DNA of 49,646 bases from a virus. The notes under the pieces were generated by a model. It worked only from the letters and a program-made list of their open reading frames with translations, searched no databases and was not told the DNA's origin. The translations under genes were made by a program, and so were the position numbers. The DNA lies in the IMG/VR virus record IMGVR_UViG_3300022591_000519, positions 1 through 49,646 of that record; one strand, 5' to 3'. Positions 4,778 through 9,467 of this stretch are shown piece after piece; position 1 is the stretch's first letter, and each line of letters begins with the position of its first letter.

Positions 4778-5965
4778 TTATTGTTTGTTAACAAGTACAT
4801 CCTTCTTAACAAAACCTCTACGCTTTTCAGCGTCTCTCACTTCAATCCAATCGTCGAGACTGCCTACGATTGTTACAAGTGTGCCCTTTTTAAACTGCCA
4901 AGTTTTTTGACTCTGTTCATTTGGCTCTTTATAGATAAAGGTCGCCTCTGACAAAGTTATTTCGCTTGGTAGCTTTATAAGGGGTGCTACCTCTTTCCTT
5001 ACTTCTGCGGCGGCAGGGGGTAAGGTTTCTGTTTTCGTTTCGGATTGGGTTTGTGGTTGTACCACGACATCTTTCTTCTCCTCTACTTTAACTTCTGAAC
5101 TAATTATAGGAGCAGTTGGTGCTACAAGAGGTACAGGTCCTTTTGGTATAATAACTTCCGCTACTGGATCCTGTCTGTAATCCCATACTCCTTTACGTTG
5201 CCCTTCTTTAATTAATTCTACTACAGCCATTTCTGTTGCGGCTTTAACTGCGTAAGTACCTGGCTCATTAATTGTTAAGCCTACCTCCGCTTCAAAACTC
5301 TGTGTGCCTTGATCAAAGAACTTTAATGCTGTTGCTGAATCTGCTGTGCTTAAGATAGTCTTTTGTACTGTAACACTTGCTATTACCTTTCCTGTGTTTA
5401 CGCTAACTGCTCTCAATGCGATAGTTACTGTGTCTGTAGACCATTGTGTTTGTTTGCCAATACCAAAAATACGCATACCAGCACCGCCACTGGTAGTACT
5501 TGTGTCATAGCCAACAATACCACCTTCAATAATAATGCCCGCAAACATCATAGGCATTAAAGGTTTAGCATTTGCGCCTTCGTATGCTTCACGCATCTGA
5601 CGAATGATTAAGCGTTCTTTAGTCAAGTTGTCAATACCTACACGTTCAACAACTTCAAACCATTGTCCTTGTCCTACATCACTTAGAGCTTTGATTAGGA
5701 ATGTTTCTGCGCCCTGTGTAACTGCTGTTGATAAACTAGCCACGTTAGCTTGTGGACGGCGCTGACCTGTTTTGTCGGCAAAACTATATACTGCTACGCT
5801 AACTGGTTTGCCAGCCGCAGGAGCAGGAAGCGTGTCAAATTCTTTCTTGACATTCTTCATCTGCGTAGTTACTGATGGATCAGTTTCGCTAAGTCCGGTA
5901 CTTTGAATGATTGCGCATCCATTTAGTAGGGCTGTTACTGATAGAGCTATTAATACTTTTTTCAT
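4778..5965 (-). CDS. csgG: CsgG-family outer-membrane curli secretion channel with C-terminal SH3-like domain
   Basis: 395 aa lipoprotein (lipobox LNGC, Cys17). Residues about 50-270 align along CsgG: VSVAVYSFADKTGQ, LSTAVTQGAETFLIKAL, FEVVERVGIDNLTKERLIIRQ, a GYDTSTTSGGAGMRIFGIG loop, KTILS and NEPGTYAVKAATEMAV. CsgG forms the nonameric outer-membrane pore for curli subunits. At the E. coli eyelet (Tyr51, Asn55, Phe56) this protein appears to have Gln72, Ser77 and Leu78. Unlike E. coli CsgG it continues through a Pro/Glu/Val linker (about 275-335) into an SH3-like domain (TFIYKEPNEQSQ to RGFVKKDVLV) that could bind cell wall. It starts 4 bp after the csgF stop. Family assignment is strong. 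Confidence 0.93.
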   Translation of the reverse strand: MKKVLIALSVTALLNGCAIIQSTGLSETDPSVTTQMKNVKKEFDTLPAPAAGKPVSVAVYSFADKTGQRRPQANVASLSTAVTQGAETFLIKALSDVGQGQWFEVVERVGIDNLTKERLIIRQMREAYEGANAKPLMPMMFAGIIIEGGIVGYDTSTTSGGAGMRIFGIGKQTQWSTDTVTIALRAVSVNTGKVIASVTVQKTILSTADSATALKFFDQGTQSFEAEVGLTINEPGTYAVKAATEMAVVELIKEGQRKGVWDYRQDPVAEVIIPKGPVPLVAPTAPIISSEVKVEEKKDVVVQPQTQSETKTETLPPAAAEVRKEVAPLIKLPSEITLSEATFIYKEPNEQSQKTWQFKKGTLVTIVGSLDDWIEVRDAEKRRGFVKKDVLVNKQ

Positions 5966-5969
5966 TTAA

Positions 5970-6434
5970 TTAATTTCCAAATTGGAATTGCCCTAACGGA
6001 ACAACTACGGTAGTTTGATTGCCAACAGTATCTGTAACCTGCAGAGTAACATCTGTGCTACTCTTAGTCCAAAAGATAGTGTTGCCTTCAAAGTTTAATG
6101 TGCCTGAGCATCCAACGCTGTTAGTTCCTGAACAGTTATTATTGGCAAACATTGCCGATGCTAAGTTTTGGCTAATCTGTGCGTAGATACGTGATTCCAA
6201 GTTGTTCATAAACTTGGCAATATTTGTATTTGCTTTGTCAGCGGCCGCTTTATCTAATGCGGCCTGGATAGCATCGCGTACAGCTTTTTGGCGTGTAAAT
6301 TCTTGGTTCTCGATAGTTAGTACGTGAGAACTGTAACCAATGCCGTTAAAGGCAGGGCTTTTAAATGTGTAATCTCCCAATGGGGCCGCAGAGGCACCTG
6401 TAGATAACAATAATACTAGCAATAGCTTGCGCAC
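5970..6434 (-). CDS. csgF: CsgF-family curli assembly factor
   Basis: 154 aa from a GTG start with a strong GGAGGAG ribosome site. Signal peptide LLLVLLLSTGASA, then the CsgF N-terminal pattern YTFKSPAFNG (the segment that plugs into the CsgG pore in E. coli), a helix with NNLESRIYAQISQNL, and the C-terminal strands GTLNFEGNTIFWTK, VTLQVTDTVGNQTTVVVP. CsgF couples CsgG secretion to fibre nucleation at the surface. A short Cys-containing insert (NNCSGTNSVGCSG) could form a disulfide. First gene of the curli-like operon. Its ribosome site lies in an inverted repeat that spans a late promoter. No csgE or csgC is visible in the window. Confidence 0.88.
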   Translation of the reverse strand: MRKLLLVLLLSTGASAAPLGDYTFKSPAFNGIGYSSHVLTIENQEFTRQKAVRDAIQAALDKAAADKANTNIAKFMNNLESRIYAQISQNLASAMFANNNCSGTNSVGCSGTLNFEGNTIFWTKSSTDVTLQVTDTVGNQTTVVVPLGQFQFGN

Positions 6435-6440
6435 GAGTCG

Positions 6441-6479
6441 CTCCTCCGAGTAGTGTTATTAGTATTTACTGGGGAGGAG
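6441..6479 (-). promoter_or_regulatory. Inverted repeat sequestering the csgF ribosome binding site
   Basis: On the minus strand CTCCTCC (6479-6473) is complementary over 7 bp to the csgF Shine-Dalgarno GGAGGAG (6447-6441). The 25-nt loop holds the late box AGTAAATA (6470-6463). Read-through RNA would hide the ribosome site; RNA started at the late box would lack the left arm. T4 uses this logic for some late genes. Confidence 0.6.
6463..6470 (-). promoter_or_regulatory. Late promoter box of csgF (AGTAAATA)
   Basis: TAAATA core 28 nt upstream of the csgF GTG, with a strong ribosome site between. Differs from T4 TATAAATA at the first two bases, like many boxes in this window. Confidence 0.45.
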
Positions 6480-6515
6480 TCGTGATTAAACTAGGTGTTT
6501 ATTTCTTAATCTAGA

Positions 6516-7910
6516 TTAAACTTGCGGTGTTGGAGGTTGAGTAAACCCTTGAGGTTTTCTAAATGCCGGCGGATTTGAAGGTAATTTTTTAGCCGGTGCA
6601 GGCTGTTGGACTACTTCTGGTTTTGGAGCTCTTAGATTTAAATCTGGGAACTTTTGTTTTACTAACGCAGGAATCTTTTTATGGTTAGTATTTTGAGATG
6701 CTAGTTGCTCAATGTACTTTGCAACGTCGGCTTGCAATGCAGGCTCACGCAGGTCTAAGTTTCTAGGCCAGCGTTGTTGAGCCATCTTGATCATGTACTC
6801 AGCTGTTTGACCGTAGAACGCTTTCATAGCCGCAGGAGTTTGCTTTTTAGGAGGCTCAATACCTGCAATAGGCTCTCTTCGTAAGTTCACGCTTGGGGAA
6901 ATTAGTTTGCCACCCCAACCTGCATTAGGATGAGATAACGAGAATGTTACGGTATCGACATCATTGTACATTTCTGCAGGATCGTCGAAGTAGCGTAATT
7001 CTTGGTTATCAAAGTTGATAAGCATAATGCCATCAAATTTAGTTGATTTATCTTTCTTTTGCTTGTACGCACTATAAGCCGCAGTCAGGTAACCTTGTCT
7101 AACTGGAGCAATTGAATCATGTTTAACATTAATAGATTTTATAGCCTGCTTCAACGGAGTTGTATTCGCCCAAGGTTGGCCTTTAAAGATGTAATCTGCT
7201 AGTTCGTCAGCCATTGCAGATAAACCTTTATTGTCTATAGTACCTTGTTGTTGTGCGGCTACCACTGCTTTTACTAGTTTGTCTGCACCAACAGCTTGCG
7301 AAGTGTCTAAATTTGGCAAGAACTTCTGTAGAATAATATGTACCTTTTGGTGTTGGAACATACTAGTATCGCCAATTGTACCCGATCCTGCTTTAACTTC
7401 AACGATCTGATTTCCAATCTTTAGGTCACCTGATCCAAACACAGATACCTGCGGACTCATAATAGCTAGGGCAAACTCCCCAGGACCTTTTTTAGCCTTG
7501 CCGCCCAAGTCTTTCATTTCGTTAAACATTTCGAATAAAAACTTGAGAGGAACTTTTTTGCTAGGCTTTAATAAATCTGCAAAGTGATGACGGTTGCCGT
7601 CGATCATTTTTTGAATATCTACATAACCGGTTTTTAAACCGTTTACAAAGTTCATCTTTTCTTCAAAGGTACCCGGCGCACCGATAATCGCGTTTGCAAT
7701 TTCATCCTGGAAGGACCTAATTTCAGGATCTGATAAATTATGTAATTCACCGTGTAGTCGCTGATTTAGATCCCCACTATTAAGTGTAGTATAGATTCGG
7801 TTTAATAAGACTTCGTCATCTGTTTGATCGATGCCTGCTTTTACCTTAGTCTTTAGGTTGTCTAAACTTCTTGCAGAAGTTTTTTCAAAGATGATATCAA
7901 TTGCTCGCAT
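6516..7910 (-). CDS. Putative internal virion protein with nuclease-like motif
   Basis: 464 aa. The N-terminus MRAIDIIFEK matches a short tag shared with other virion-like proteins here (M-R/K-x-x-x-L/I-x-E). Around residue 170 the stretch GDLKIGNQIVEVKAG has the D-x(n)-E-x-K spacing of PD-(D/E)XK nucleases, inside a segment that looks beta-rich; this is suggestive only. The last 50 residues are Pro/Lys-rich and probably disordered. A late box (GCTAAATA) ends 7 nt before the ATG and there is no Shine-Dalgarno site. Probably a phage structural or injected protein; I do not recognise a named family. Confidence 0.6.
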   Translation of the reverse strand: MRAIDIIFEKTSARSLDNLKTKVKAGIDQTDDEVLLNRIYTTLNSGDLNQRLHGELHNLSDPEIRSFQDEIANAIIGAPGTFEEKMNFVNGLKTGYVDIQKMIDGNRHHFADLLKPSKKVPLKFLFEMFNEMKDLGGKAKKGPGEFALAIMSPQVSVFGSGDLKIGNQIVEVKAGSGTIGDTSMFQHQKVHIILQKFLPNLDTSQAVGADKLVKAVVAAQQQGTIDNKGLSAMADELADYIFKGQPWANTTPLKQAIKSINVKHDSIAPVRQGYLTAAYSAYKQKKDKSTKFDGIMLINFDNQELRYFDDPAEMYNDVDTVTFSLSHPNAGWGGKLISPSVNLRREPIAGIEPPKKQTPAAMKAFYGQTAEYMIKMAQQRWPRNLDLREPALQADVAKYIEQLASQNTNHKKIPALVKQKFPDLNLRAPKPEVVQQPAPAKKLPSNPPAFRKPQGFTQPPTPQV

Positions 7911-7917
7911 AGTCTAA

Positions 7918-7925
7918 TATTTAGC
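7918..7925 (-). promoter_or_regulatory. Late promoter box (GCTAAATA), leaderless type
   Basis: TAAATA core overlapping the end of the bilin reductase gene, 7 nt upstream of ATG 7910. No ribosome site is present between box and start. Confidence 0.4.
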
Positions 7926-8586
7926 CTAGTTCTGGGAACAAACTGTAGTTGACGTATGCGGCCGCTTCCTCCGCTGTAAAGCCTAAATGCTGTAAACTAG
8001 CGGGAGTGCGTGGATTTTGCTTTTGATAACGGCAATAGCGATCTTGTACCATTTCATAGGTGGCTACATCTTGTTGCCCTAATCCTACATTAGCTAGATA
8101 AAAATCCAGTGTTTCTAGCCCTAGCTTAATAAACTTGTCTAATTCTTCTTCACCCACCGCACCGATAGCTACCATAGCAGGGCTAAAGATCTGCTTGCCC
8201 CAATCGGGCAGTTCTCTAGGCTTGTTCCACTCTTCCATTGCTACCTTGGCGTTAAACCAAAGCCACATAGGACTTTCTTTATCGCCTGCTAGACTAAAGT
8301 CGTGGAATGCACCGCTTACTTTTGTTGGCCCGCAAACAATATCAAAACCGTAAATAGGGCTAGGGTCGTTAGTGTGGGGAAACACAGTAACGTGTAGTAG
8401 ATAAAGTTTTTTAGTTTCTCTCGCATCTATAATACTAATATGTGCTCTACGATATTTCATAGAGGTATATTCTTTATCAGCTAACAGCTCTGTTCTGAAT
8501 ACACTATTCAGAGCACCTGTCTGAGTAAAACGCCTAGTTATTTCTTCGGCGCAGGCAATAGTTTTATCAAACAAGCTCTGAGTCAT
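7921..8586 (-). CDS. Ferredoxin-dependent bilin reductase (PcyA/PcyX-like)
   Basis: 221 aa. Matches the FDBR family: YGFDIVCGPTKVSGAFHDFS, with Asp96 at the position of the PcyA catalytic Asp105; PMWLWFNAKVAMEEW; and the terminal pattern YCRYQKQNPRTPASL...YVNYSLFPEL. FDBRs reduce biliverdin to open-chain bilins using reduced ferredoxin. The late acidic residue of PebS (in its FGxDW segment) is not evident, so it looks nearer the PcyA/PcyX group than PebS. Phage PcyX enzymes are known to make phycoerythrobilin; the product here cannot be set from sequence. The gene overlaps the heme oxygenase gene by 20 bp, so the two are co-translated. Confidence 0.88.
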   Translation of the reverse strand: MTQSLFDKTIACAEEITRRFTQTGALNSVFRTELLADKEYTSMKYRRAHISIIDARETKKLYLLHVTVFPHTNDPSPIYGFDIVCGPTKVSGAFHDFSLAGDKESPMWLWFNAKVAMEEWNKPRELPDWGKQIFSPAMVAIGAVGEEELDKFIKLGLETLDFYLANVGLGQQDVATYEMVQDRYCRYQKQNPRTPASLQHLGFTAEEAAAYVNYSLFPELG

Positions 8587-9103
8587 AGGTGTGCATTAGT
8601 TTCATTGCCCACTCAAAGGCTACGTTAGCTTCATCACCCATACTATCATTTAATTTAGCACGGATTGCGATTTTAAGAGCATCAACATCTGCAAACTCTA
8701 AATTACGGTGTGGGGGAGGTAAAACTTTTTTAATCATTTGTCCGCCAAACAAATCGCCCATGTGCCATACATACAAGTGTGCTAGAATACGCTCAGGTTG
8801 ATCAACTAGAGTTAGCAAGTATCGAGAATACTCTCCAGTAACAGGGCGCACACGCACCTTGCTCATATCGCCTAGAATTTCTTGCGCATCAAGATATAAG
8901 TGTACGCTACGCTCAATATCTAAAATGTCTAGTGTTAGTTTATTGTAACGGCAAACGTTTTCAATAGTATTATATATTACACTCTTTTGAAATGTGTAAT
9001 CACCCCAAACAGGCACAGGCATGCGTTTTTTAAATACGGCCTGCATAAAGGGTGTTGCCTCTGCGGCTTGGTGACTGTCCCAAGTTAATTCTTTCAAGCT
9101 CAT
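8567..9103 (-). CDS. ho: Heme oxygenase
   Basis: 178 aa HO-1 type enzyme that opens heme to biliverdin, CO and iron. The proximal heme ligand is His11 in TWDSHQAAEATPFM, and the distal-helix signature HLYVWHMGDLFGGQMIKK is intact. It is somewhat shorter than bacterial HO (about 200-240 aa), as in other phage versions. It supplies biliverdin to the bilin reductase whose start lies inside its 3' end. A canonical late box TATAAATA lies 18 nt upstream, with GGAG as ribosome site. Confidence 0.92.
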   Translation of the reverse strand: MSLKELTWDSHQAAEATPFMQAVFKKRMPVPVWGDYTFQKSVIYNTIENVCRYNKLTLDILDIERSVHLYLDAQEILGDMSKVRVRPVTGEYSRYLLTLVDQPERILAHLYVWHMGDLFGGQMIKKVLPPPHRNLEFADVDALKIAIRAKLNDSMGDEANVAFEWAMKLMHTYDSELV

Positions 9104-9121
9104 TATGATCTCCTCTACGGA

Positions 9122-9129
9122 TATTTATA
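9122..9129 (-). promoter_or_regulatory. Late promoter box (TATAAATA) of heme oxygenase
   Basis: Exact match to the T4 late consensus, between the clpS stop and the heme oxygenase ATG. Confidence 0.65.
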
Positions 9130-9137
9130 GTGGGCTT

Positions 9138-9440
9138 TTATTCGGCTTCAACTTTTAGGACTAATGGGAAGTTGTTTTCACGAGCTAGATTAGTACCTTC
9201 AATGGCTTTCTGTTCGCTAACCTCAAATGTATAAACTCCGGCAATCGCAGATCCTTCGTGATGGATTTTCATCATCAACTGTTCAGCGGCAGATTGGCTG
9301 TGGTGGAACACTCTCATCAGAAGCACGATAACAAACTCCATAGGGGTTTTGTCATCATTAAGAATGAGGACTTTGTACTTACCTGGGTTAAGAATATCTA
9401 AATCTTCCACGGTTTCTTGTTTAGTAATAACTTCTGACAT
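9138..9440 (-). CDS. clpS: ClpS N-degron adaptor
   Basis: 100 aa, close to E. coli ClpS (106 aa). The core VLILNDDKTPMEFV (Asn28, Asp29) and KIHHEGSAIAGVYTFEV keep the residues that bind N-end-rule residues. ClpS brings such substrates to ClpAP and blocks ClpAP from SsrA-tagged proteins. The same phage encodes a tmRNA, so ClpS could steer tagged peptides away from ClpAP (inference). It has its own late box, TATAAATA at 9460-9467, and an AGGAA-type ribosome site. Follows hsp20. Confidence 0.93.
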   Translation of the reverse strand: MSEVITKQETVEDLDILNPGKYKVLILNDDKTPMEFVIVLLMRVFHHSQSAAEQLMMKIHHEGSAIAGVYTFEVSEQKAIEGTNLARENNFPLVLKVEAE

Positions 9441-9459: not shown

Positions 9460-9467
9460 TATTTATA
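9460..9467 (-). promoter_or_regulatory. Late promoter box (TATAAATA) of clpS
   Basis: Exact late consensus 19 nt upstream of the clpS ATG. Confidence 0.65.

Follow-up and report, generated by a model that had tools for sequence, protein, structure and literature searches.

The csgF leader of the phage DNA analysed here very probably contains a real switch, as judged by comparing it with the leaders of related phages. We consider it likely that this leader acts in cis as an insulator at the RNA level and as a gate on translation, with a promoter in its loop, probably a late promoter used through a gp55-like sigma factor. Computation shows the complementary arms, their covariation among relatives, their placement around the promoter box and the contrast with other genes. 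The T4-type mechanism is known; its use on curli genes appears to be unreported, and the papers on phage curli modules (PMC7029224, PMC9004378, PMC9599517) make no mention of a hairpin.

The curli cluster and the leader hairpin of csgF

The window, that is, the whole stretch of DNA analysed, is a virus record of 49.6 kb to which no phage isolate is closely similar in DNA. A curli-type cluster lies on its minus strand, comprising csgF, csgG, a 282-aa protein with a curlin-like repeat (recognised by eye and unmatched in Pfam), a protein with a FecR domain and one of 497 aa whose curlin repeat is weak. The same order (csgF, csgG, curlin repeat, FecR, curlin repeat) is found in the modules of pelagimyophages and of Melnitz (PMC7029224, PMC9004378, PMC9599517). 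The genes and leader elements, in window coordinates, are as follows.

4778-5965, minus strand: csgG, starting 4 nt after the csgF stop (Pfam CsgG, E 1.7e-46)
5970-6434, minus strand: csgF, GTG start, 154 aa (Pfam CsgF, E 3.3e-12)
6432-6436, minus strand: TCGTG, including the csgF GTG start codon, partner of CACGA (fold, ORF)
6441-6447, minus strand: 3′ arm GGAGGAG, the csgF Shine-Dalgarno sequence (inverted repeat, fold)
6457, minus strand: predicted transcription start, placed by the T4 convention of a box at -13 to -6 (PMC2988020)
6463-6470, minus strand: promoter box AGTAAATA in the hairpin loop, TAAATA core at 6468-6463 (TAAATA in 37 distinct csgF leaders)
6473-6479, minus strand: 5′ blocking arm CTCCTCC, anti-Shine-Dalgarno (exact inverted repeat; replaced yet complementary in relatives)
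6480-6484, minus strand: outer stem CACGA, partner of TCGTG (fold)
6485-6489, minus strand: -35-like TTAAT, 16-17 nt before TAAATA (position-locked in csgF leaders)
6506-6519, no strand assigned: operator-like palindrome TTAATCTAGATTAA (csgF leaders alone among 138 loci)
6516-7910, minus strand: co-directional upstream gene, 464 aa, putative source of read-through (ORF; no terminator before csgF)

A sequence-only reading of this DNA had claimed that a stretch upstream of the box can pair with the csgF ribosome site, and the arms lie exactly where it had put them: on the minus strand, all seven bases of CTCCTCC (6479-6473) are complementary (7/7) to the Shine-Dalgarno sequence GGAGGAG (6447-6441), which stands 6 nt ahead of the GTG start (6434-6432). 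Read on the plus strand, the arms are CTCCTCC at 6441-6447 and GGAGGAG at 6473-6479, separated by 25 nt. The stem may be extended by CACGA (6484-6480) pairing with TCGTG (6436-6432), which would cover the start codon as well. Folding with and without the first arm bore out the same reading. The full leader reaches a minimum free energy of -22.2 kcal/mol (z -2.7; 3/200 shuffles as good) and adopts two near-equal hairpin registers, one with the exact 7 bp and, in the longer fold, another that is shifted and bulged, whereas RNA from 6462, lacking the left arm, reaches -7.9 kcal/mol (z +0.7) with the Shine-Dalgarno sequence free; the latter is thus held only when both arms are present. The cost of opening the Shine-Dalgarno sequence falls from 10.9 to 2.0 kcal/mol (a drop of 9.0) once the RNA starts after the box. 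With the window sequence alone, shuffled left arms equal its pairing in 1.1-2.4% of trials. On its own, therefore, the window is suggestive, the significance of its hairpin being modest. No Rfam family matched at E ≤ 1 within 6300-6620.

It is well established for T4 gene e that a promoter within a hairpin can bring about translational control (PMC3014915), and the leaders of T4 e, soc, 49, I-TevI and segB and of Aeh1 mobE use the same mechanism (PMC3014915, PMC2988022), so the T4 precedent invoked in the sequence-only reading is sound. As in the T4 e-type leaders, the Shine-Dalgarno sequence and start codon would be sequestered in read-through RNA fed by co-directional upstream transcription, and the promoter box lies within the structure, so that internally started RNA would be without the 5′ strand. 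Unlike them, the leader described here precedes csgF of a curli-secretion module, its box deviates from TATAAATA, it has a conserved TTAAT and further upstream sites, its 5′ arm takes up the space from TTAAT to the box, and its pairing is kept across many leaders that are less than 60% identical.

Pairing kept with changed letters

A CsgF scan of viral contigs gave 157 stretches encoding a relative, of which 80 loci were kept. Removal of near-identical leaders left 36 with a TAAATA box 22-75 nt before csgF, the start codons of the relatives' csgF genes being picked by rule. Most of the 36 fold as a hairpin with the box in or beside the loop and the Shine-Dalgarno sequence in the 3′ arm. Fixed-column covariation on a MAFFT alignment of these tight hairpins was unusable because stem registers shift by one base between leaders, leaving the columns mismatched; it was replaced by a register-free swap test. 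Own arms paired at a mean of -12.9 kcal/mol and swapped arms at -8.9 kcal/mol (36 csgF leaders; z -8.5; 0/10,000 permutations). The contrast held among leaders less than 60% identical (n=17, z -7.2, 0/20,000) and among those less than 55% identical (n=12, z -5.2, 0/20,000). Because pairing is conserved while the letters change, it lies far beyond chance.

Individual leaders illustrate the replacement. The arm pair is ATTCGCTCCC/GGGAGCGAAT in L014, with letters unlike those of the window, ACTCTCGCT/AGCGAGAGT in L033, ACACACcCCTGT/ACAGGaGTGTGT in L065 and CTAGATCCT/AGGAGCTAG in the L005 type; L021 is a further example of pairing with different letters. The nearest relative, L011 (CsgF 90% identical), has both arms changed, to ATTCGCT/AGCGAAT, which are still complementary, and its GTAAATACTAATAA is identical to that of the window. 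Had close relatives lost the left arm, this would have spoken against the sequence-only reading, but L011 has re-lettered both arms and most leaders pair. Pairing is weak or absent in roughly one leader in four (L028, L031, L035, L015 and L037). Four leaders (L002, L005, L006 and L016) have a second hairpin (CTACTACC...GAGGTAG, with an AT-rich loop). It covers a new ribosome site, located some 45 nt past the box hairpin, and the simple gate model does not account for it.

Across five records, namely the window and four large related ones, TAAATA stands ahead of 185 genes on the sense strand, compared with 59 antisense boxes, and this enrichment indicates that these phages truly use the TAAATA core as a promoter signal. 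For csgF leaders the median switch value, defined as the drop in Shine-Dalgarno opening cost when the RNA starts after the box, was 4.6 kcal/mol, versus 0.4 kcal/mol at the 185 boxes, which come from these five records and include a few csgF genes, the window's among them (Mann-Whitney P 5e-8, uncorrected for kinship). A few other genes also appear to have a promoter inside a hairpin that sequesters the Shine-Dalgarno sequence (L124:13756, L117:10172 and L105:5147).

These data bear on several other explanations of the inverted repeat. Its arms flank the promoter box, as would be expected if it worked as DNA (an operator or a cruciform surrounding the promoter) and not as RNA; however, the arm letters are freely replaced while pairing is kept, whereas a protein-bound operator would retain its letters, and most leaders have their ribosome site in the 3′ arm, which makes this reading very unlikely. 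The complementarity might instead be a by-product of a purine-rich Shine-Dalgarno sequence facing a pyrimidine-rich spacer, with no regulation involved. The chance level of 1-2% for the window alone is compatible with this, as is the fact that any CU-rich stretch pairs somewhat with a Shine-Dalgarno sequence, swapped arms still averaging -8.9 kcal/mol. Nevertheless, own arms pair better than swapped arms in every identity stratum and most other TAAATA-preceded genes in the same phages have no such pairing, and we hold a by-product to be highly improbable. A stable intergenic stem could also be a transcription terminator, an attenuator or an RNase processing site, but no U-run follows this stem, it overlaps the Shine-Dalgarno sequence and start codon, and it has no Rfam match; we regard such a role as extremely unlikely, and that of a terminator was rejected since the terminator scan does not list the stem.

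A probable promoter within the loop

In T4, late promoters have the box TATAAATA at -13 to -6 and no conservation at -35, and deviations from the box almost always number one at most (PMC2988020). Like T4 gp55-dependent late promoters (PMC2988020), the boxes considered here have a TAAATA core, an AT-rich downstream region and sense-strand enrichment before genes; unlike them, the csgF boxes depart from TATAAATA in their first two bases and are accompanied by TTAAT at -35. The window box, AGTAAATA, has two mismatches to TATAAATA, both at the first two positions, where the late consensus of phage Aeh1 likewise deviates (PMC2988020). The base preceding TAAATA is T or G in 36/37 csgF leaders (T 22, G 13, A 1, other 1; hand count). 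At other boxes, A (95 sense versus 23 antisense) and C (37 versus 8) are favoured in this position, and G (29 versus 12) and T (32 versus 19) are least enriched. Counted from TAAATA, the csgF leaders also share TTAAT, or a sequence close to it, at -22 to -18, as well as AA at -33 to -31, and the blocking arm occupies the spacer between TTAAT and the box. As a position-locked element, TTAAT is absent from the other TAAATA boxes of these phages (five records), and it was therefore rejected as a general late-promoter -35 element. Among the 138 loci, the palindrome TTAATCTAGATTAA is carried by the window, L014, L035, L043 and L044; it is possibly an operator. The csgF promoter thus looks specialised while sharing the late core. 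The sequence-only reading, which spoke of a late box, holds as far as the TAAATA core in the loop and RNA begun internally, without the blocking arm, are concerned; the two mismatches to TATAAATA, the preceding T or G and the TTAAT at -35 make the label late less certain.

A scan of the five records with a csgF-promoter profile returned chiefly csgF itself among its top matches. It also pointed to G007, where another promoter of the csgF type stands before a 686-aa protein of the curli cluster; such a site is present at L098:5107-5140, where the downstream 686-aa protein is secreted and beta-barrel-like and there is no Shine-Dalgarno hairpin.

No gp55-like sigma factor is encoded in the 49.6-kb fragment. 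Such factors are present in the relatives' records G002 (E 2.5e-81), G011 (E 1.7e-77) and G017, with a weaker match in G005, and T4 Gp23 capsid proteins in G002, G005, G007 and G017. The gp55-like factors at G002:279146-279979 and G011:46-858 are 280-305 aa long, versus 185 aa in HTVC008M. Given these sigma factors in relatives, a T4-type late transcription system is likely present in this phage group.

It is also conceivable that the hairpin gates translation while the loop promoter is not a gp55 late promoter at all but one dedicated to the curli module, with another timing or trigger, in which TTAAT as a -35-like element and the upstream sites would serve some phage or host factor. We regard this as a real possibility, though somewhat on the improbable side. 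It would account for three traits of the 37 csgF leaders that the general boxes of the same phages do not have (TTAAT at -22 to -18, AA at -33 to -31 and T or G just ahead of TAAATA), for profile matches that fall mainly on csgF and on the one G007 site before the 686-aa curli-cluster protein, and for a palindrome confined to csgF leaders. On the other hand, TAAATA is the core of the late box, the Aeh1 late consensus differs at the same two positions (PMC2988020), csgF of HTVC008M is directly preceded by a canonical TATAAATA, and the TTAAT element could be inherited without being bound. More tentatively still, there may be a curli-module-specific class of promoter in T4-like phages, made of TTAAT and operator-like sites with a late-type core and a 17-bp spacer that is itself the anti-Shine-Dalgarno arm. 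If this doubtful proposal were true, phage curli pores would be made on a dedicated signal and not with the general late genes.

Read-through and the proposed gate

The co-directional upstream gene stops 47 nt short of the box; beyond it, in the same direction, lie genes for a bilin reductase, a heme oxygenase, ClpS and HSP20. The bilin reductase, heme oxygenase and ClpS genes (window 7921-9440) form an unusual auxiliary-gene mix next to a curli module. Canonical TATAAATA boxes accompany the heme oxygenase gene (ho1) and clpS (9122-9129 and 9460-9467), and a terminator scan of the minus strand from 9472 to csgF found no terminator. Most relatives, too, have a co-directional upstream gene and no terminator before csgF. 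Since canonical late boxes lie upstream and no terminator intervenes, the hairpin should block late read-through as well. The sequence-only reading had the hairpin silencing csgF until late transcription; sequestration of the Shine-Dalgarno sequence and GTG in read-through RNA agrees with the silencing, but the upstream late boxes do not suit its restriction to early times, and insulation of csgF from read-through is the better description.

Read-through seems impossible at three loci, L012 and L025 (terminator upstream) and L059 (divergent upstream gene); a hairpin is found in 0/3 of them by opening cost (P about 0.02, calculated by hand), while pairing probability shows no significant difference (P 0.68), and these loci were not counted as support. 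At L059:3542-4862, csgF and what looks by eye like a lysis cassette (a probable endolysin with two small proteins, membrane or lipoproteins) are divergently arranged, a layout relevant to the proposal that curli pores of phages have a part in lysis. In HTVC008M and Melnitz, two genes for small membrane proteins precede csgF, which, unlike in the window, has no hairpin leader; in L024, L042, L045 and L056 csgF likewise follows one or two small membrane proteins, with no leader hairpin. The protein in L045 matches phrog_18771. Apart from this, no convincing Pfam match was obtained for these small membrane proteins, and their identification as holins was rejected.

At the csgF-csgG junction of the window (5960-5975) there is no Shine-Dalgarno sequence for csgG, and in most clade-A loci 0-4 nt separate the csgF stop from the csgG start, again with no Shine-Dalgarno sequence. 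This spacing suggests that csgG is probably translationally coupled to csgF, so that both pore genes are probably gated together.

Taking the insulator and gate as the preferred reading, we infer where its RNA starts, to which class its promoter belongs and when it fires, as well as the block to translation and the coupling, and events might run as follows. Read-through RNA from the co-directional upstream genes, whether begun at early or at late promoters, would contain both arms; the 5′ arm would pair with the csgF Shine-Dalgarno sequence and start codon, so that ribosomes could not initiate csgF, and csgG would also be blocked, as it appears to depend on csgF translation. The promoter with TAAATA in the loop would start RNA at about 6457, past the blocking arm, leaving the Shine-Dalgarno sequence free, and CsgF and CsgG would be made only when this promoter fires. 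Firing would probably be late, through a phage gp55-like sigma factor; the promoter being atypical, an extra factor at TTAAT may be needed.

A conserved gate of this kind would mean that mistimed synthesis of an outer-membrane pore is costly, like premature lysozyme in T4. Why phages carry curli-secretion genes has been the subject of several proposals, namely sibling capture, superinfection exclusion and lysis control, and the gate gives a concrete timing prediction and a sequence signature for the switching on of the curli module. It would extend the logic of T4 e and soc to a large set of uncultured phages.
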